Shown here: piece after piece, positions 7,466-20,036 of the stretch
Numbering within the stretch: the stretch's first letter is position 1
Layout of the letters: the number at the start of each line of letters is the position of its first letter
Assembly: GCF_032854445.1 (NCBI RefSeq)
Contig: NC_088295.1
Location: 6,884,501 to 6,948,500, forward strand
Reading direction: 5' to 3'
DNA length: 64,000 bases
Source of the DNA: Liolophura sinensis
Lineage: Eukaryota > Mollusca > Polyplacophora > Chitonida > Chitonidae
The notes under the pieces: generated by a model
The model's input: only the letters and a program-made list of their open reading frames with translations
Database searches by the model: none
Told to the model about the DNA's origin: nothing
Translations under genes and position numbers: made by a program

Positions 7466-10400
7466 ATGGGGCTGTTGCGCCGACGATCAAAAGCTGAGGG
7501 TCCTGCGGTGAGAGGCTGTGTTGGTAACAGTGAGTTAAGCAGAGTTTGTCAGAATGAACCCGTTACACAGTTCATGTAGATGTTAACAGTGAGCTAAGCA
7601 ATGCCTCCTCTGTCACAACTTATTTGTTGCTTTAGGTATTGGTAACAGTCAGTTAAGCAGTACTCCTTCAAAGTTTCTGGTCGTAATTAACTTGTTTATA
7701 TTCTGATATCAATGATTTTCTTTTGTGTGAGGAAAAAAAGTAAATGATTAAAGAACTTGTTTGTATTTGAGAATACTGGATTGTACATGTATTAACATGT
7801 TTTTATGTTGTACTGGTAAATGAAGGCAGATGATACTGTTTACATTATTAATGCTGTGCTCTGTTACTATATTTTAGGACAGCTTTTTCAATACTTGGTT
7901 GTGATAGATTTTGAATCAACTTGCTGGAAGGATCAAAAATTCCGCACTCAGGAAATTAGTAAGTTATCACCACACATGGTTTCAGTTATTGTGTTCGAAG
8001 AAACTGAAATCAAATCAGCACATACATGTAAAGATCTTCTAGTGATGGAAGTATCATTGTAGTAAAACCTGCCCTGTGTTTGTCTAATACATATCTCTAA
8101 GCCAGATATCATATGTCAGTTTTGTATTTTATAAGAAATACTTGTGCAGAATCTTTTAATCATTGACACTTTCTTTTGGTGAGGCCTAGAGTATGTGTAA
8201 TTAATTTGTAACGTCCTGTTCCCCCAGTTGAATTCCCGGCTGTGTTACTGAACACTTCTTCTGGAATTTGCGAGTCAGAATTCCACTTCTACGTACAGCC
8301 TTGTGAACAACCTGTGCTGAGTGACTTCTGTAAGCAGCTGACTGGCATTACCCAGGTAAGGTCTGTGTGCTGAGTAACTTCTGTAAGTACCTGACTGGCA
8401 TCACCCAGGTAAGGTCTGTGTGCTGAGTGACTTCTGTAAGTACCTGACTGGCATCACCCAGGTAAGGTCTGTGTGCTGAGTGACTTCTGTAAGTACCTTA
8501 CTGGCATCGCCCAGGTAAGATCTGTGTGCTGAGTGACTTCTGTAAGTACCTGACTGGCATCACCCAGGTAAGATCTGTGTGCTGAGTGACTTCTGTAAGT
8601 ACCTGACTGGCATCGCCCAGGTAAGATCTGTGTGCTGAGTGACTTCTGTAAGTACCTGACAGGCATCGCCAAGGTAAGGTCTGTGTGCTGAGTGACTTCT
8701 GTAAGTACCTGACTGGCGTTGCCCAGGTAAGATCTGTGTGCTGAGTGACTTCTGTAAGTACCTGACTGGCATTACCCAGGTAAGGCCTGTGTGCTGAGTG
8801 ACTTCTGTAAGCAGCTGACAGGCATCACCCAGGTAAGGTCTGTGTGCTGAGTGACTTCTGTAAGTACCTGACTGGCATCACCCAGGTAAGATCTGTGTGC
8901 TGAGTGACTTCTGTAAGTACCTGACTGGCATCGCCCAGGTAAGGCCTGTGTGCTGAGTGACTTCTGTAAGTACCTGACAGGCATCATCCAGGTAAGGTCT
9001 GTGTGCTGAGTGACTTCTGTAAGTACCTGACTGGCATCGCCCAGGTAAGGCCTTTGTGCTGAGTGACTTCTGTAAGTACCTGACTGGCATCACCCAGGTA
9101 AGGTCTGTGTGCTGAGTGACTTCTGTAAGTACCTGACTGGCATCGCCCAGGTAAGGCCTGTGTGCTGAGTGACTTCTGTAAGCAGCTGACAGGCATCGCC
9201 CAGGTAAGATCTGTGTGCTGAGTGACTTCTGTAAGTACCTGACAGGCATCATCCAGGTAAGGTCTGTGTGCTGAGTGACTTCTGTAAGTACCTGACAGGC
9301 ATCGCCCAGGTAAGGCCTGTGTGCTGAGTGACTTCTGTAAGTACCTGACTGGCATCCCCCAGGTAAGGTCTGTGTGCTGAGTGACTTCTGTAAGTAACTG
9401 ACAGGTATCACCCAGGTAAGGTCTGTGTGCTTAGTGACTTCTGTAAGTACCTGACTGGCATTGCCCAGGTAAGGCCTGTGTGCTGAGTGACTTCTGTAAG
9501 TACCTGACTGGCATCACCCAGGTAAGATCTGTGTGCTTAGTGACTTCTGTAAGTACCTGACTGGCATTACCCAGGTAAGGCCTGTGTGCTGAGTGACTTC
9601 TGTAAGCAGCTGACAGGCATCACCCAGGTAAGGTCTGTGTGCTGAGTGACTTCTGTAAGTACCTGACTGGCATCGCCCAGGTAAGGCCTGTGTGCTGAGT
9701 GACTTCTGTAAGTACCTGACTGGCATCACCCAGGTAAGGTCTGTGTGCTGAGTGACTTCTGTAAGTACCTGACTGGCATCACCCAGGTAAGGTCTGTGTG
9801 CTGAGTGACTTCTGTAAGTACCTGACTGGCATCCCCCAGGTAAGATCTGTGTGCTTAGTGACTTCTGTAAGTACCTGACTGGCATCGCCCAGGTAAGGCC
9901 TGTGTGCTGAGTGACTTCTGTAAGTACCTGACTGGCATCACCCAGGTAAGGTCTGTGTGCTGAGTGACTTCTGTAAGTACCTGACTGGCATCACCCAGGT
10001 AAGGTCTGTGTGCTGAGTGACTTCTGTAAGTACCTGACTGGCATCACCCAGGTAAGGTCTGTGTGCTGAGTGACTTCTGTAAGTACCTGACTGGCATCAC
10101 CCAGGTAAGGCCTGTGTGCTGAGTGACTTCTGTAAGTACCTGACTGGCATCCCCCAGGTAAGATCTGTGTGCTTAGTGACTTCTGTAAGTACCTTACTGG
10201 CATCGCCCAGATAAGGCCTGTGTGCTTAGTGACTTCTGTAAGTACCTGACTGGCATCACCCAGGTAAGGTCTGTGTGCTGAGTGACTTCTGTAAGTACCT
10301 GACTGGCATCACCCAGGTAAGGTCTGTGTGCTTAGTAACTTCTGTAAGTACCTGACTGGCATTACCCAGGTAAGGTCTGTGTGCTGAGTGACTTCTGTAA

Positions 10401-13400
10401 GTACCTGACTGGCATCACCCAGGTAAGGCCTGTGTGCTGAGTGACTTCTGTAAGTACCTGACTGGCATCACCCAGGTAAGGTCTGTGTGCTGAGTGACTT
10501 CTGTAAGTACCTGACTGGCATCGCCCAGGTAAGGCCTGTGTGTTTTTAATGACTTCTGTAAGTACCTGACTGGCATCCCCCAGGTAAGATCTGTGTGCTT
10601 AGTGACTTCTGTAAGTACCTTACTGGCATCGCCCAGATAAGGCCTGTGTGCTTAGTGACTTCTGTAAGTACCTGACTGGCATCACCCAGGTAAGGTCTGT
10701 GTGCTGAGTGACTTCTGTAAGTACCTGACTGGCATCACCCAGGTAAGGTCTGTGTGCTTAGTAACTTCTGTAAGTACCTGACTGGCATTACCCAGGTAAG
10801 GTCTGTGTGCTGAGTGACTTCTGTAAGTACCTGACTGGCATCGCCCAGGTAAGTTCTGTGTGCTGAGTGACTTCTGTAAGCAGCTGACAGGCATCACCCA
10901 GGTAAGATCTGTGCACTTAGTGACTTCTGTAAGTACCTTACTGGCATCGCCCAGGTAAGGTCTGTGTGCTGAGTGACTTCTGTAAGCAGCTGACAGGCAT
11001 CACCCAGGTAAGATCTGTGCACTTAGTGACTTCTGTAAGTACCTGACAGGCATCGCCCAGGTAAGGTCTGTGTGCTTAGTAACTTCTGTAAGTACCTGAC
11101 TAGCATCACCCAGGTAAGGTCTGTGTGCTGAGTGACTTCTGTAAGCAGCTGACAGGCATCACCCAGGTAAGGTCTGTGCACTTAGTGACTTCTGTAAGTA
11201 CCTGACTGGCATCACCCAGGTAAGGTCTGTGTGTTGTGACTTCTGTAAGTACCTGACTGGCATCACCCAGGTAAGATCTGTGTGCTTAGTAACTTCTGTA
11301 AGTACCTGACTGGCATCACCCAGGTAAGGTCTGTGTGCTGAGTGACTTCTGTAAGTACCTGACTGGTATCACCCAGGTAAGGTCTGTGTGCTGAGTGACT
11401 TCTGTAAACAGTGAGAAAGTACAAAGGAACAAGGCATCAGTAAATGACACTACAAAATTTTGATACTTGAGAGTTCCTTGGCTTGAAAGGAAGTAGTCAA
11501 CAATGCTTATAAGACTAAGGTGAGGTGTTACATGAAGTTTTTGGGAGATCACATAACCTGCAGATGTAAATATCTGCCACATGTTAGAAATCACATAACC
11601 TGTGAATGTACATATCTGTTTCACATGTTAGAACTCACATAACCTGCAGATGTACATATCTCTGTTATATGTTAGAAATCACATAACCTGTGGATGTACA
11701 TATCTGTGTCACATGTTAGAAACCACATAACCTGCAGATGTAAATATCTGTGTCACATGTTAGAAACCACATAACCTGCAGATGTAAATATCTGTGTCTC
11801 ATGTTAGAAATCACATAACCTGCAGATGTAAATATCTGTGTCACATGTTAGAAATCACATAACCTGCAGATGTAAATATCTGTGTCACATGTTAGAGATC
11901 ACATAACCTGCAGATGTAAATATCTGTGTCACATGTTAGAAATCACATAACCTGCAGATGTAAATATCTGTGTCACATATTAGAAATCTTGTCTTTTACT
12001 TGTTGAAAGTCTTTCTTTAGTGTGGGCCTCTTGATTACTTCCATTCATACATAATCTGAACTCCATCCTATAAAGAATGTCACGACATGATGGCTTTACA
12101 TCACTTGAGAAGTATTTCAAATGTACATTCATGTGCATGGAGTTTGAATACATGTAGCAATAAGGTGGATAAATAATCAAAATTTCAATGTGCAGGAATT
12201 GATGAAGAGAAAAAATGCTATGTGGTTCCCAGTTTTAACGGGACTACATGTGGAAAGTCGAGAGAGTCGGGTGTTATATACTGGTATTTGACTTATAATC
12301 TTGTTCTCATACCTGATCAGGCCCAGGTTGAGGATGGTATTCCTCTGTCTTTGTGTATGAAGAAGTTTGGGCATTGGATAGAGAAACTGAACCGAGAGAA
12401 GAATGTGTTGTTTAACCCTGGGACACCTCATCCTGTGAAGGGGACATTTGTTACCTGGTCAGGTAAGCTATTTAAAAAAAACATTCAGATGTTACATGCT
12501 AGTCAAGCAAACTGACATGCTCTGTGGTACCTGGTGTCATCTTGAGAGAAGGGTAGCCAGCTATAAACTGTATCCAAAACGAGTTGAAAGCAGGTATATC
12601 AGGAACTGTTTCATGGTGTGATGGTTTCATCCCAGAGTGGATGAGTTTCGAGTTTGAATTCTTTTATTGCTAAAAGTTATAGAAATCCTAGTGTAACATT
12701 GGAGACTGATGTTTCATGAAAATGTTTTGGAGTAGATGAACGATGAAGAAAATTGAGGAGCGGAATGTTGGTGAATTACTTGTATAAAGTTCCTGATGGA
12801 AAAGGGTTGTCATTTGTGCCTGCCAAACACCCCAGGACAGAGGATCAGTAACTCTTTTGACAAGTTGTATGACTCAATAGGACTTTTTTTATCTGAAATG
12901 ACAAAAGAATCTGATCTCAGAACTCCTCTATTGCCCTGTTTTCTATGGGAATGGAAAAACACCAGTAACTTACCAATGGTCTCCCCTGAGGCACTCTGGT
13001 TTCTTCCACCATAAAACTGACAGTTGTAATATAGGTGGAACATTATAATAAGTACGTAAATAAGTAAAGTAAGTGTTCAGTAACAAAAGCCAGTGTCCTG
13101 GTGTATCTGATGTTACAGACTGGGATCTCAGCGTATGTTTACAGTATGAGTGTAAGAGGAAGCAGATAATGAAACCTGCCTATCTGAACAGCTGGATTGA
13201 CCTGAGAGCCACATACAGGGTAAGGTTGGTAACTGTGGGCGAGATTTCACTCAGAGTTTCTCCTGAGACTGGTTATCTGTATTGTAAGAGTACTGAATTA
13301 TTCTCTGATAGATTCTGATTTGTTTGATTAAAGAAGACAAAATTAGGCAATTCCTCAATCCATAAAGATGCCCTATTTGGCTCCAAGTTCTTTTAGTTTG

Positions 13401-16400
13401 GCTCCAAGTTCTTTTGGTGCTCTTAGAAAGTGCCCTTTCGGCAGGTTGAGGTTGGCTCTTAGAAGAGCCATTGTGGTCCACTTCTGCAGGCTATTTGTTG
13501 TTGCTAGGCAGTTAGCATGTCCTCCAGAGCTTCAATTCCATAAAGCTGATACCTTAGATCAGCCACCAGGTCAGCCATGGTACAAGCGTATTCTATAAGT
13601 AGCCCCCTCACCCCTAGTGTCACGCCAGCCTGCAGACGGAGATTGTAACGAAATGACTTCTGTGTCTTAGGGCAGGCTGTACTGAAGCTATTCTCATAGA
13701 CATCCAGCTTCTGGTTGAGACATACGATCTGGGCATAGGCATGGTTGAAGCGGAGCTCAGCTTTGTGTAGCTGATCCTCTAGGCTGTGGTTCTCCATGAC
13801 TACTAAGTAATTGTTTGGTGTGTCAGGGAAAATGTAGCAGATGACTTGTCCTGTGGCTTATATACTGGTCATGACATTCAGCAGGGGGGATTTTAGGCCT
13901 GAGTAGAGATCAGGATAGTATTTCCTGGTCTGCTTGGGTTGGGTGGGGGTGGGAGTTAATGGGGAAGGGGAGGGGGGGATTAGGCTAGAGGATAATGTAC
14001 TGTTAGATAAGTACTCACCTGCAGGATTTAGCATGCCCTAATCTGCCTTAATCCACCTTAATCCCATTAATGTCAATCCTTTGAGGATTAATTACTGACC
14101 TCTAAACTGGATTATATTAGTTTGTTCTTTATTTGTGGTGCTAACATATTAAGACCAGGGTGTAGCATATGATATTAAAGACTTAGAGGTAATTGAGAAA
14201 TAACAGACCACCCATCTCCTCAGCTTAGTGCAAGAAAGCACAAGGTTTTAATGTATCCAGTAACTAATTTGATGACAATGTGACAGACGTGTTAACAGTG
14301 TGTTTTCTACATGTAATTTCAACATAACAATGACTGAACATGTAATAGAAGCCTGAAAGTTTTAAAACAACGAACTTGATTACAAGGCAACAGACTTGCA
14401 TTAACAGTGCTTTATCAAATTTCAATATGAAAATGACTGGGCTGCAACATGCGAACGAACTTATAGGACATTTGCCTAAAGTGAGATCTGCTGTTGCAAT
14501 CTGTTTTGTTTTTTTCCAGTTTTTGTTAAAGTGCACAGACTATTTTATTTGAATTCTGTGTAGGATTGTTTTCTGGTTGAATATTGTGAAGCAGAGTAAA
14601 CTTTGAAAAAGGAAACAATGTGCCGACATTAAATGGTGCATGTATACTAAATGTTGCATGTCTAGTAAATGGAGTACGAATAGTACGTGGTGCATGTATA
14701 CTAAATGGTGCATGTCTAGTAAATGGAGCATGAATAGTACGTGGTGCATGTATACTAAATGGTGCGTGTATGGTGTATGGAGCATGAATAGTACGTGGTG
14801 CATGTATACTAAATGGTGCATGTCTAGTAAATGGAGCATGAATAGTACGTGGTGCATGTATACTAAATGGTGCATGTATGGTGTATGGAGCATGAATAGT
14901 ACGTGGTGCATGTATACTAAATGGTGCATGTCTAGTAAATGGAGCATGAATAGTACGTGGTGCATGTATACTAAATGGTGCATGTATGGTGTATGGAGCA
15001 TGATGATCAGAATTTGAAAACAAATACGTGGTTATGTGCTTATAAATAGTTCTTAGCTGACTATTGAGTAGTATTATTCTGTGTTTGTCATTGAAGCCCA
15101 GCAGCAAATCTGTAATACACAGAGGTTTCAATGTATGTTATCAGAATTTCTACAGCCGTAAACCAAATGGATTGAATGGAGCCCTGCAGGACTTGGGGAT
15201 TGAGTTTTCAGGAAGGCAGCACTCAGGTTTGGGGCCATCTTCTGTCTGTCTTCAATATGTGTCTGTACTTCAGTATGCCAACAAGCCGTCTGTTGTTGTT
15301 GCATGTAATCTGGTAAACTTCATTCCTCGACTGCAGTAAAAAAAAAAATAATGTCCCTTTTGTTTATTTTTGCATCTACAATGTGGTCATTTGGAAGAGA
15401 GCCGAAAACTGAATCTGTTGAAATTCTTTGTATCTTATTTTTACTGTCCATCATTGTTGAAAAAGCCTACACCAATAATATGTCTCACGAAAGAAATTAT
15501 TTAATTGTTTTCCAAAGGTTATGCATTTTTCATTGAGATTTTTTATGACCAAAGAAGATATTTGTTACGAGTACAGTAAGTATGTCATGTTTTGTAGGTG
15601 TAGACGATGCTCGAAACACAGCACACCTTGCCTGGCGCATGATGCGTGATGGCTGCATCCTGAATGTCACTAAAACTATAAAGGTAGGATAGCAAAGGTG
15701 GTAATACATCAAAGGAAGCTTTGCTAGCCAACCAGAGAACTATAAAGGTAGGATAGCAAAGGTGGTAATACATCAAAGGAAGCTTTGCTAGCCAACCAGA
15801 GAACTATAAAGGTAGGATAGCAAAGGTGGTAATACATCAAAGGAAGCTTTGCTAGCCAACCAGAGAACTATAAAGGTAGGATAGCAAAGGTGGTAATACA
15901 TCAAAGGAAGCTTTGCTAGCCAACCAGAAAACTATAAAGGTAGGATAGCAAAGGTGGTAATACATCAAAGGAAGCTTTGCTAGCCAACCAGAAAACTATA
16001 AAGGTAGGATAGCAAAGGTGGTAATACATCAAAGGAAGCTTTGCTAGCCAACCAGAGGAGATAGTCTCGCAAACTGTCTGCCGTGACTACAGTTATTTAT
16101 TGTGCTACTTTTGTTGTTAGACATGAACAGAAATGTAGTTCTACAGCACTGTGATATGTACAAACTTGTCATGTTTTGTGTACATGGGGTGAATACCATC
16201 TTGAGCAATCATCTTTATAACTTTATTTCCTCAGTTAACCTTTAATACTTTGTGCTGTGTCATTGTTAGAAATAAAATAGCTTATATTGTTTTACCTGAT
16301 ATTATCACAAACTTAAACTTAGCAAACACTTTTTGTACTCATCTGATGGTGCTTTATGGATGTAAAAATTCTTGTAATAAACCACTTTTATCAAGGATGT

Positions 16401-17884
16401 AAGAGTTGTTTGTTTACTCAGTTTTATTACTCTTTCTTCAGGAGCTGGGCAGAGGGTCCAGTGTGGGGTTGTCAGTGAGCGCACAGGAAAAGAGTCCAGG
16501 CAGAACCAGTGACTTGCAGCCAGCTGACGACATGCAGGATACCTCAGTACTGCAGCTGTTCAAAAGGCCATTACCCCCAGTTACCTCCTGTCTAACCTCC
16601 CCATCTCTCAGATCCCCAGTACGAAAACAGCCCAGAGTCATACCAAACTCTTTGTCAAAATCTTCGACAGACTCCGACATCGGAGCTACATCAGTCAAAT
16701 GTGATAGACGTGCAGAAATTGGCAGGTTCACGGTATCAACACTATCTTCAGAAGAGTCCAGAATATCTGAAAGTACAGTCTTCAAAAAACCCAAATCTCC
16801 TGTATCCAGCAAACCCGTTAACATGCCATTCACTAAGACAACTAGTACAGTGTTACACAGGCCCGATAATACGGTATTCACTAAACCAGCAAGTGCCATG
16901 TCAAGTAGATCCGGGAATGCGGTATTCACTAAACAAGCAAGTACTGTGTCAAGCTCTGTGCCTAGGTGTTCAGAAAATGCAGCATTCTCTAAACCAGCAA
17001 ACGCTGTGTCAAGTAGATCAGTTAATGCAGTTTTCACTAAACCAGCAAGCACTGTGCTGAGTAGATCAGAGAATGCAGTATTCAAAAAACCAGCATGTTC
17101 CATGTCAAATAGATCAGGGGAAACAGTATTCGCTAAACCAGCATGTGCTGTATCAAGTAGATCAGGAAACAAAATATTCACAAATAAAGCACCAGTTTCA
17201 AATACATCTGGTAGCGACAATGTACTCCTCAACAGGATAACAAAACAATACTCTGAACCAAGGTCAGTAGCGGATTTGAAATCCAAGAACATGTTGTTGA
17301 ATGCAAAATTGGTAAATACTCCTGGATGTAAGACTTCAGGCTCTACATCCTGCCTAGAGCTTGACAAGGAAAATCAGGTACCAAGCCTTAAACAACCAAG
17401 CCCATCTTGTGTCAACTCGACTTCTGTTAACAGAAACAGGACTCCAAGTCCTCTGTACAAGGCTCATCAGATGGGTATGGTCACCCCAGTGGCTGCCACA
17501 AGGCCTCTGGGCGAGTCACTCAAATGCTGGAGCTCTGCTAGCATCACCCCACCGCTGTGCCTCTGTGGGAAGCGGTCCAAGCGGCGCCTTGTCCAGTCAC
17601 CAGGACCAAACCAAGGACGATGTTTTTACAGCTGTCCTTCCGGCAGAAGGCCAGATTTGGTACAGAGTAAAAAGTCTGCAGGCTGTCAGTTCTTTAAGTG
17701 GGAAACTATATTATCCAAAGGTCAGACAAAGTTTGCTCCTGCACCATCCAGAAATGCCATGTCCACTGGGTTGTTGAGGCGACACACCAGTATAGTACAA
17801 CCTGACAATCGCCTGACTGCATCATGTAACAAACACCTGAGGAAATCCAATCTGCCAGCCAGACCGTCGCTGCATATGAGGTGA
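7466..17884 (+). CDS. ERI2: ERI1 exoribonuclease family member 2-like (DEDDh 3'-5' exonuclease with GRF zinc finger)
   Basis: Eight coding exons: 7466-7523, 7878-7958, 8228-8355, 12321-12462, 13119-13219, 15145-15226, 15598-15683, 16442-17884; all phases agree and total 706 codons plus stop (human ERI2 is about 690 aa). The exonuclease domain occupies roughly residues 21-225: the DFE motif gives D30 and E32, TWSDWDL gives the second Asp, and HSGVDD gives H196 and D201, so the DEDDh set is complete. A low-complexity Ser/Lys-rich middle carries 48-bp coding repeats. Near residues 599-648 is a GRF-type zinc finger (CLCGKRSKRR ... FYSCPSG ... CQFFKWE) as in vertebrate ERI2. Exon 1 uses donor GTAACA, the only choice that keeps frame; an N-terminal extension from an upstream exon is possible. 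Introns 3 and 7 begin with tandem copies of their own donor. A histone-type gene lies in intron 5 on the other strand. Confidence 0.93.
8310..11410 (+). repeat. 53-bp array made from ERI2 exon 3 end plus donor site
   Basis: About 57 copies of a 53-bp unit begin in the last 46 bases of ERI2 exon 3 and fill the start of intron 3. Each copy keeps the exon end (CTGAGTGACTTCTGTAAG ... ATCACCCAG) and the donor GTAAGG. Most copies also turned exon TCTGTAAGCAG into TCTGTAAGTAC, giving a second donor-like GTAAGT per unit. Some copies keep the original GTAAGCAGCTGAC. Long minus-strand reading frames across the array are shadows. Confidence 0.95.
11549..11988 (+). repeat. 44-bp minisatellite in ERI2 intron 3
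   Basis: About ten copies of a 44-bp unit with ACATAACCTGCAGATGTAA and a TGTCACATGTTAGAA end. It is wholly intronic and not derived from a flanking exon. Confidence 0.9.
13431..13442 (-). promoter_or_regulatory. Candidate histone downstream element
   Basis: On the minus strand, a purine-rich GCCGAAAGGGCA begins about 12 nt after the stem-loop. Histone pre-mRNAs carry a purine-rich element at this distance that pairs with U7 snRNA. The match is by position and composition only. Confidence 0.4.
13454..13469 (-). promoter_or_regulatory. Histone-type mRNA 3' stem-loop
   Basis: Minus strand GGCTCTTCTAAGAGCC: a 6-bp stem with the four-base loop TCTA, matching the loop rule UYUN and the invariant GG...CC stem of metazoan replication-dependent histone mRNAs. 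It is preceded by ACAAT and followed by AACCTC (the usual tail is ACCCA). It sits 34 nt after the stop codon of the 97-aa reading frame, within the usual histone range. SLBP would bind this RNA element. Confidence 0.8.
13504..13797 (-). CDS. Nested intronless 97-aa protein with histone-gene layout, family unknown
   Basis: One uninterrupted reading frame from ATG 13797 (context AGTCATGG, good for initiation) to TAG 13504, antisense within ERI2 intron 5. It starts MENHSLEDQLHKAELRF, looks mostly helical, has three Cys, and has a conserved-looking centre (SFRYNLRLQAGVTLGVRGLL). It is roughly neutral in charge and has no histone fold, signal peptide or zinc motif that I can see. A TATA box lies 60 nt upstream and a perfect histone-type stem-loop 34 nt downstream, so the transcript is predicted to be non-polyadenylated and made in S phase or in the germline. 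I do not recognise the protein. It could be a lineage-restricted family that acquired histone-type processing. Confidence 0.72.
   Translation of the reverse strand: MENHSLEDQLHKAELRFNHAYAQIVCLNQKLDVYENSFSTACPKTQKSFRYNLRLQAGVTLGVRGLLIEYACTMADLVADLRYQLYGIEALEDMLTA
13857..13864 (-). promoter_or_regulatory. TATA box of the nested gene
   Basis: Minus strand TATATAAG, 60 nt before the ATG. A start site about 25-30 nt downstream would give a leader of roughly 30-35 nt, typical of replication-dependent histone genes. Confidence 0.55.
14632..15003 (+). repeat. 18-bp repeat with 108-bp higher-order period, ERI2 intron 5
   Basis: 18-bp monomers of the type GTATACTAAATGGTGCAT, TCTAGTAAATGGAGCAT and AATAGTACGTGGTGCAT alternate in a fixed order that repeats every 108 bp. 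Since 18 is a multiple of 3, several frames on both strands stay open (up to 201 codons). These are not genes. The array ends about 140 bp before ERI2 exon 6. Confidence 0.9.
15674..16057 (+). repeat. 64-bp array spanning the ERI2 exon 7 donor
   Basis: Six nearly identical 64-bp copies. The first begins 10 bases inside exon 7 (AACTATAAAG, exon end 15683) and each copy carries the donor GTAGGA. Near identity indicates recent amplification. The rest of intron 7, 16058-16441, shows nothing further. Confidence 0.95.
16820..17195 (+). repeat. 48-bp coding repeat inside ERI2 last exon
   Basis: About eight diverged copies of a 16-residue unit with consensus close to NAVFTKPASTVSSRSE, in frame, in the disordered region between the exonuclease and the GRF finger. 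One copy is interrupted by a short SVPRC insert. The antisense frame is also open for 309 codons; that is a by-product of the repeat. Confidence 0.85.
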
Positions 17885-18595
17885 TGAAGAATGGGACTTG
17901 CTAGAACTCTCAAAAACAGCAACAACTGTCTTTTTATTGCTTGTTTTGGAATGTACGCAATGCTGACACAAACCCCCAAACAAATAGTTATAAAATTTTT
18001 TGATAAGAATTATACAATGTTATATTCTGCACATGGGATATGATAAACAATGGAAAGAACATTATCTGTGTCAGGTTAGCGAAAGACCAATAATGACTGT
18101 ACTGCTCCATGTGTATGGGGGCTTCTATAAACCTGATTCATTTCAGTCTGTGTAACAGTACATAAATAATATTTTATTAGGACCAAATTGTGTCTTGTTT
18201 TAAAAATATTTACCATGATTACCAGAAATGACCAATTCACAGAGCCAAGGAACAATAGTCTTCTGGACAGAGTTCCATCTCTTCCGAATCATGCAGGAAA
18301 AACCCTGTCTGGTGTTAGGGGTGTAGCTCATTGAGTAAGGTACACAACTCCTGGCTAGAATGCACACAAGTTTCGGCTTTAATCTAGGCTTTTGGACCAG
18401 GAAGTATTACATACCAGGGCCTTGGTGAAAATAAGCAGTACTTGTGTGGCCATCAGTAATATGCCAAAGGGCTAGATGCTTTATTCCACACGCTCCTGCT
18501 TCCTTCATCATCCTATAGGCCAAAAAGTCTTGTATTTGATTCCAGGGCCAAAAATTCCTGTATTAGATACCAGGGCCAAAAAGCACTCTACATAT
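17885..18595 (+). other. ERI2 3' region with a decayed tRNA-like segment
   Basis: Contains the presumed 3' UTR of ERI2. At 18316-18395 a tRNA-like sequence has an A-box-like TAGCTCATTGAGTAAGG and a poor B box (TTTCGGCTTTAATC). It is probably the head of an old SINE and not a tRNA gene. Confidence 0.35.
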
Positions 18596-20036
18596 ACAGT
18601 GTCGATCAGCTATTTGTTATGGTATGATGGGTGTCCCACAACCACTGACCATAAACAAGGGCACAAGTTGATCAGGTACTTATTATGGTATGATATGTGT
18701 TCCCTGACCACAAACCATAAACAAGGGTACATGTTGATCAGGTCCTTGTTATGGTATGATGGGTGTCCCACAACCACTGACCATAAACAAGGGCGCAAGT
18801 TGATCAGGTACTTGTTATGGTATGATGGGTGTTTCCTTGTCACTAACCGTAAACAAGAACACGTGTTGATCAGGTACTGGTTATGGTATGATAGGTGTAC
18901 CCTGACCTACTATATAATAAACCATAAACAGGGACACATCTTGATTAAGTATTCGTTATGGCATGACGGGTGATCCCTGACCAGTAACCATGAACAAGGG
19001 CACATGTCGATCAGCTGTTTGTTATGGTATGATGGGTGTTCCCTGACCACTAACCATAAACAAGGGCATAAGTTGGTCAGATACTTATTATGGTATGATG
19101 TGTGTTTCCTGACCACTAACCATAAACAAGGGTACATGTTGATCAGGTACTTGTTATGGTATGATGGGTGTTCCCTGACCACTAATCATAAACAAGGGTA
19201 CATGTTGATCAGGTACTTGTTATGGTATGATGGGTGACCCCTGACCAATAACCATAAACAAGGGTACATGTTGATCAGGTACTTATTATGGTACGATGTA
19301 TGTTCCCTGACCACTAACCAGAAACAAGGGCACATGTTGATCAGGTACTTGTTATGGTATGATGGGTGTTCCCTGACCACTAATCATAAACAAGGGTACA
19401 TGTTGATCAGGTACTTATTATGGTATGATGGGTGATCCCTGACCAATAACCATAAACAAGGGTACATGTTGATCAGGTACTTGTTATGGTATGATGGGTG
19501 TTCCCTGACCACTAACCATAAACAAGGGCATAAGTTGGTCAGATACTTATTATGGTATGATGTGTGTTTCCTGACCACTAACCATAAACAAGGGTACAAG
19601 TTGATCAGGTACTTGTTATGGTATGATGGGTGACCCCTGACCAATAACCATAAACAAGGGTACATGTTGATCAGGTACTTATTATGGTATGATGGGTGTT
19701 CCCTGACCAATAACCATAAACAAGGGTACATGTTGATCAGGTACTTATTATGGTATAATGGGTGATCCCTGACCAATAACCATAAACAAGGGTACATGTT
19801 GATCAGGTACTTGTTATGGTATGATGGGTGTTCCCTGACCACTAATCATAAACAAGGGTACATGTTGATCAGGTACTTATTATGGTATAATGGGTGATCC
19901 CTGACCAATAACCATGAACAAGGGTACATGTTGATCAGGTACTTGTTATGGTATGATGGGTGTTCCCTGACCACTAACCATAAACAAGGGCACAAGTTGA
20001 TAAGATACTTGTTATGGTGTTCCCTGACCATAAACA
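18596..20036 (+). repeat. 66-bp intergenic satellite
   Basis: About 22 copies of a 66-bp unit containing TTGTTATGGTATGATGGGTG and ACCATAAACAAGGG, lying between ERI2 and survivin. The unit is a multiple of 3 and stop-poor, so open frames of 60-165 codons appear on both strands. They are not genes. The array runs straight into a SINE tail. Confidence 0.92.

Follow-up and report, generated by a model that had tools for sequence, protein, structure and literature searches.

The window, by which we mean the whole 64-kb stretch of DNA that was analysed, holds on its minus strand a short gene with an uninterrupted coding region and a 3' end of the kind found in histone genes, while recognisable pieces of a presumed host gene lie on the plus strand. 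The features are as follows.

13864-13857, minus strand: TATA box TATATAAG, read directly from the sequence
13504..13797, minus strand: coding sequence of 97 codons without interruption, for a small non-histone protein with two predicted helices
13454..13469, minus strand: histone-type 3' stem-loop GGCTCTTCTAAGAGCC, based on the sequence, on covariance models and on pairing across paralogues
13417..13440, minus strand: block like the histone downstream element, CGAAAGGG..CTTTCTAAGAGCAC, in the layout of this genome's histone genes
16403..17884, plus strand: frame with a GRF zinc finger (PF06839, E 6.6e-12), a probable ERI2-like exon
7820..8062, plus strand: frame with DFESTC at 7907, which we take to be an exonuclease-like motif

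A preliminary description of this DNA had reported the TATA box, the 97-codon frame, the purine block and, 34 nt past the stop, the stem-loop, and each of these elements was recovered when the minus strand was re-read. The frame begins with an ATG at 13797, which leaves a gap of 59 nt to the TATA box, and ends with the stop TAG at 13506-13504. A longer string around the TATA box, TATATAAGCCAC, was seen again upstream of paralogues that form an array on C6. The stem-loop, located 34 nt 3' of the stop, is made up of a perfect 6-bp stem and the loop TCTA, and 13 nt past it lies the purine block CGAAAGGG (13440-13433), after which the stretch closes with AGCAC at 13417. The gene had also been called intronless; for the coding region, to which this statement applies, introns are indeed absent, with an unbroken frame from ATG to stop in the window gene and in 11 other lineages of its family. 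The placement of the gene antisense within ERI2 was borne out in part: the GRF zinc finger at 16403-17884 on the plus strand agrees with it, whereas the frame with the exonuclease-like motif and one further plus-strand frame gave no Pfam match at E 0.001. Judging from the arrangement of these frames, the gene apparently lies in an intron, antisense between the ERI2-like frames and upstream of the GRF frame, in a host gene that is presumably ERI2. Repeat blocks at 8454-10999, 14526-15137 and 18476-19845 of the window produce long repetitive open frames.

Genes with histone-type ends give mRNAs that mature through U7, lack poly(A) and are coupled to S phase. The 3' end of the window gene was compared with those of histone genes from the same genome, of which 27 3' regions were inspected; a filter identified a stem-loop in 24 of them and none in the other three (L053, L060, and L067). 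After omission of L050 and L059 as near copies, 22 aligned histone 3' ends (H1, H2A, H2B, and H3, presumed types judged by their C-termini) were used to build R1, a covariance model with a 6-bp stem and with zero sequences from the non-histone family in its training set. Across the 64-kb window R1 yielded a single significant match, which is the window-gene site (38.9 bits, E 7.1e-7) and which spans all 60 model positions, with the downstream element and the terminal AGCAC among them. The next and only other match up to E 10 scored 14.3 bits (E 0.68). The E-values of R1 are rough, and that of the window site corresponds to approximately 0.007 once the length of the whole genome (609 Mb) is taken into account. 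The Rfam model of the histone 3' UTR stem-loop (RF00032, Histone3) picked the same site in a 601-nt search (25.2 bits, E 8.9e-5) and aligned the window copy along the whole model, albeit below its gathering score of 34, so that the curated cut-off was not reached; no Rfam model reaches its gathering score anywhere in the 64-kb window. The combination of stem-loop and downstream element, counted among the hallmarks of replication-dependent histone genes in the accessible part of PMC5011920, is thereby confirmed as more than a chance occurrence at the window gene. The purine-rich downstream element is present at histone spacing and the gene fits R1 from end to end, so the histone-type 3' end proposed in the preliminary description stands on a model trained on histones alone.

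A tblastn search of the animal's own genome with the 97-aa window protein had 168 candidates, of which 150 were scored; each of these lies at E < 1e-4, with 30-44% identity to the window protein. By count, three tandem arrays on C10 account for 130 of these matches and one array on C6 for 11; the nine others, among them the window gene, are dispersed. The arrays are located as follows.

C10:21.129-21.291 Mb, plus strand: main C10 array, 108 tblastn matches
C10:21.644-21.661 and 21.756-21.774 Mb, minus strand: two further C10 arrays, 22 matches together
C6:19.464-19.481 Mb: C6 array, 11 matches

The commonest unit spacings in the large C10 array are 1411 and 1422-1425 nt. Copy counts are lower bounds, since a second query added five places (C10:21147688, 21150432, 21167407, and 21277968; C6:19481255). 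The search for homologues covered this one animal genome; comparable entries labelled 'uncharacterized protein' may exist in the proteomes of invertebrates. Two observations concern the edge of the main C10 array: a partial inverted family copy lies at its left edge (C10:21125714-21125932), and a histone-type stem-loop at C10:21126691 has no family frame detected before it. An alignment of twelve lineages spans approximately 90 residues and has a core resembling FRYSLRLKIA..EG.RN.YYEYA..KAD.V..LR, and a DMLT-like C-terminus is common to the window protein and the one at C10:6.85 Mb. The tree of the 12 lineages had no starred branch and placed the window row on a long branch, for which reasons we claim no sister for the window gene. 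From these comparisons the window gene is best read as a divergent copy, outside the arrays, within an unnamed family that would number about 150 copies or more. The preliminary description was right in proposing a protein gene and overlooked the family to which it belongs.

Next to the frames, the stem-loop itself recurs in the family. R1 gave 52 matches of 35.7-53.9 bits over 30 family loci, plus one at 11 bits; the 52 correspond to 51 distinct places, since L020 and L021 overlap, and 50 of the 51 come after a family frame (the exception is C10:21126691). The loci retrieved contain 67 copies or part-copies, and the 54 of them that are followed by 300 nt or more of sequence were testable. A stem-loop was found at most 350 nt downstream in 50 of them and at approximately 480 nt (38.4 bits) in the C9 copy. 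The question of whether homologues share the stem-loop, raised in the preliminary description, can accordingly be answered for paralogues of the same genome, in which it is present in 51 of the 54 testable copies. The 13 uncounted copies sit at locus ends, and two of them are fragments without a stem-loop in the 214 and 293 nt downstream. Counted by lineage, nine of the 12 have the element, and those at C7:11.0, C13:9.97, and C10:6.85 Mb had no stem-loop within about 2.5 kb. Genome-wide, RF00032 scored 75 of 99,534 candidates, 74 of them over the curated cut-off, and 71 of these 74 fall in the main C10 array, where the matches listed reach 37.4-40.4 bits and thus exceed the gathering score that the window copy misses. 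The majority of the main-array matches (67 of 71) begin 35-123 nt past a tblastn family match, and in 61 cases the distance is exactly 80 nt; three of the remaining four follow family copies found separately, which brings the total to 70 of 71, and the one at C10:21126691 follows none. Across 10 distinct sequences every cell of the stem is paired, and two of the six pairs show changes in both partners. Its covariation score was reached by three of 500 shuffles, but as many as 50 equalled the count of pairs altered in both partners and 404 that of additional pair types. Because the related sequences are few and were aligned to the model, covariation of the stem lends modest support to a conserved pairing.

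The three lineages without the element leave some room for a different view, namely that the stem-loop works but serves only some tissues while the mRNAs are mainly polyadenylated. Genes with both signals do exist: the accessible parts of the respective papers describe a hairpin together with a polyadenylation signal in C. elegans histone genes (PMC1924863) and dual processing of H2A.X mRNA (PMC7807067). In the present gene family, however, the downstream element has been retained alongside the stem-loop, including the closing AGCAC-type block, and we regard predominant polyadenylation as unlikely. As for the processing machinery, the RNA-binding domain of SLBP (PF15247) gave two neighboring matches on C6, at 61.1 and 37.4 bits. 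The RF00066 model for U7 had no match over its cut-off in the genome, and a pattern for the U7 pairing 5' end plus Sm site matched six times versus 31 for the reversed pattern. The most promising-looking of the pattern matches, on C6, was rejected as a U7 candidate, since 194 of 200 shuffled versions fold better.

Histone-type ends were also detected elsewhere in the genome. The sequence GGCCCTTYTMAGGGCC occurs 151 times versus zero for the reversed pattern, and among the 100 places listed it is often away from loci with the histone domain PF00125, although some of the 151 sites may be H4 genes. At least five outward-facing pairs of GGCCCTTYTMAGGGCC are separated by 5-7 kb.

C4:5823/12174, C4:52608/59193, C4:1162026/1168704, C4:17779100/17785964, C7:7108258/7113625: outward-facing GGCCCTTYTMAGGGCC pairs

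These pairs possibly mark a mobile or virus-like element. Eight end pieces (L072-L079) were inspected, of which three close with a RING-type frame (L073, L074, and L078), three with another long frame (L072, L076, and L079), and two with nothing recognisable. PF13920 was matched by both of the pieces tested for it with Pfam, L074 and L040, the latter being the locus with the highest score of the R1 search (65.9 bits). The frame of L076 had no Pfam match and a weak match to Vsr endonuclease (E 0.004), and L042 has what we take to be a polymerase-like look. Two further places were recorded: at L080 (C6:47300300-47301665) a very basic, Lys/Arg-rich frame, protamine-like or linker-histone-like, stands ahead of a histone-type stem-loop, and at L041 (C7:54548950-54550200) a histone-type 3' end of 47.4 bits has no recognisable gene in the kilobase upstream.

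Next we analyzed the frames for signs of coding constraint. In all 11 protein-guided comparisons between the window gene and its relatives, agreement is higher at the first and second codon positions than at the third, as exemplified by the C1 paralogue (0.59, 0.67, and 0.39 at the three positions). Synonymous distances are saturated or high in these comparisons, and for this reason we claim no dN/dS for the window gene, which may be a relaxed or decaying member. Between the two C10 array types, dN was 0.036 and dS 0.119. Within them, 17 distinct intact C10A frames carry 14 nonsynonymous and eight synonymous changes, and six C10B frames nine and six, respectively, versus a neutral ratio of approximately 4 to 1. 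Intact frames were extracted for 26 of 39 C10A copies (107 codons) and six of seven C10B copies; the arrays therefore also contain broken copies, as 13 of the 39 C10A frames are not intact. When the flanks of these array types are compared per 50 nt, similarity is mostly 84-98%, and the 3' end therefore does not stand out.

Such features could also be expected if a satellite or a mobile element had once picked up the 3' end of a histone gene, in which case the frames would mostly be relics and the window copy a stranded pseudogene. The very high copy number, the likeness of the array units, the broken C10A frames, and spacers about as similar between the two C10 array types as the frames themselves all fit this reading, and interspersed elements with histone-type ends seem to be present in the genome. 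Nevertheless, open frames of one domain have been kept in 12 divergent lineages, mostly on separate contigs, with the same 3' end in nine of them, and both the constraint at the codon level and the pairing of the stem across lineages count against it. We consider an origin of this kind decidedly unlikely.

The proteins of the 12 lineages are 93-161 aa long with the start codons that we chose. Acidic tails are long in the C1, C7, and C12:30.7 Mb members and shorter in the array members on C10 and C6; some proteins, that of the window gene included, lack them. The predicted pI is below 6.5 in nine of the 12 members, and three are basic (pI 9.7-10.1). A Pfam search of the window member at E <= 10 returned a sole match, DUF7385, with E 0.058 and 13.5 bits versus a cut-off of 28. 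For the 12 members searched at E 1 the best match had E 0.0049 and none was significant; among the matches listed (25 of 27 families) one family was matched by two members and the others by one each, and the histone domain PF00125 was absent. The PDB gave no chain for the window protein by sequence at E 10, and by profile its best match, 7kzm heavy chain alpha (E 0.034), was not significant. A profile comparison with H3 of this genome resulted in a probability of 0.3%, that is, no likeness, in line with the earlier view that the protein is not a histone. Structure prediction, which the preliminary description had proposed, was carried out for the window protein with AlphaFold without an alignment and produced two long helices (3-41 and 47-96) with a mean pLDDT of 67.9, so that the predicted two-helix fold is only indicative. 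None of the 406 matches in a PDB fold search of this single-sequence model reached E 0.001 or better, and nothing is read from that search because helical hairpins match many things. A scan of viral contigs with an array protein identified four stretches that fit a pattern, none of them coding for a relative. That the proteins are extremely diverged histones which inherited their 3' end from a histone gene is highly improbable: they are small, uninterrupted, helical, multicopy and share that 3' end, but they lack PF00125 among the matches listed and any profile likeness to H3, are predicted (with the reserve noted above) to consist of two long helices, and mostly have a low pI.

Taken together, the genome contains a coding family with a common stem-loop and downstream element, organised in arrays, and an SLBP gene. 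On the one hand, the family resembles the H1, H2A, H2B, and H3 genes of the same genome in its stem-loop, downstream element, spacing, uninterrupted coding region, and multicopy clusters, and some members share the TATA box of replication-dependent histone genes. On the other hand, the family protein is not a recognisable histone, and the arrays (C10:21.1-21.8 and C6:19.46-19.48 Mb) are apart from the PF00125 loci (clusters at C1:57.9-58.0 and C7:22.7-23.8 Mb, and others). Judged from genomic sequence, the family probably consists of many genes for small helical non-histone proteins and forms its mRNA 3' ends by an SLBP/U7-type mechanism. SLBP would bind the pre-mRNA of the family genes at the stem-loop, and the downstream element, of the CGAAAG type, would pair with the U7 snRNA. 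Cleavage between the two would leave an mRNA without poly(A), and this mRNA would be made along with DNA replication or stored in oocytes.

What the protein does can be approached by analogy. Nucleoplasmin and NAP1 are acidic-tailed histone chaperones that are abundant in eggs. Some relatives in the family are acidic-tailed like these chaperones, and the window member differs from them in having no acidic tail and no significant sequence or fold match. Since dose and timing would follow those of the histones and some relatives are acidic-tailed, we put forward, as a tentative and somewhat doubtful proposal, that the family protein forms helical dimers associated with chromatin and may act as a chaperone or buffer for histones. 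In this proposal the acidic tail is a hint by analogy, and three of the 12 members are basic. A wider histone-type regulon is possible, although short of probable; it would comprise, in addition to the histones, the roughly 150 or more copies for a chromatin-associated helical protein (a chaperone or buffer, perhaps of eggs and early embryos) together with at least one interspersed element whose outward-facing genes end in the same way.

To our knowledge, descriptions of the histone 3' end generally present it as reserved for histones. Among the open-licence papers listed in our literature searches, none reported a non-histone gene family with a histone-type 3' end, and SLBP has never been implicated in the direct regulation of other genes according to the accessible part of PMC2781718. 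The family, whose mRNAs appear to end in the histone manner, hints at a further protein that the animal produces in time with its chromatin. A conserved and strongly amplified non-histone user would show that the histone 3'-end system can be recruited by other genes, and would offer a natural test of what the histone-type 3' end is for. Such a user would also draw attention to an unknown protein, one perhaps required by cells in step with their histones.
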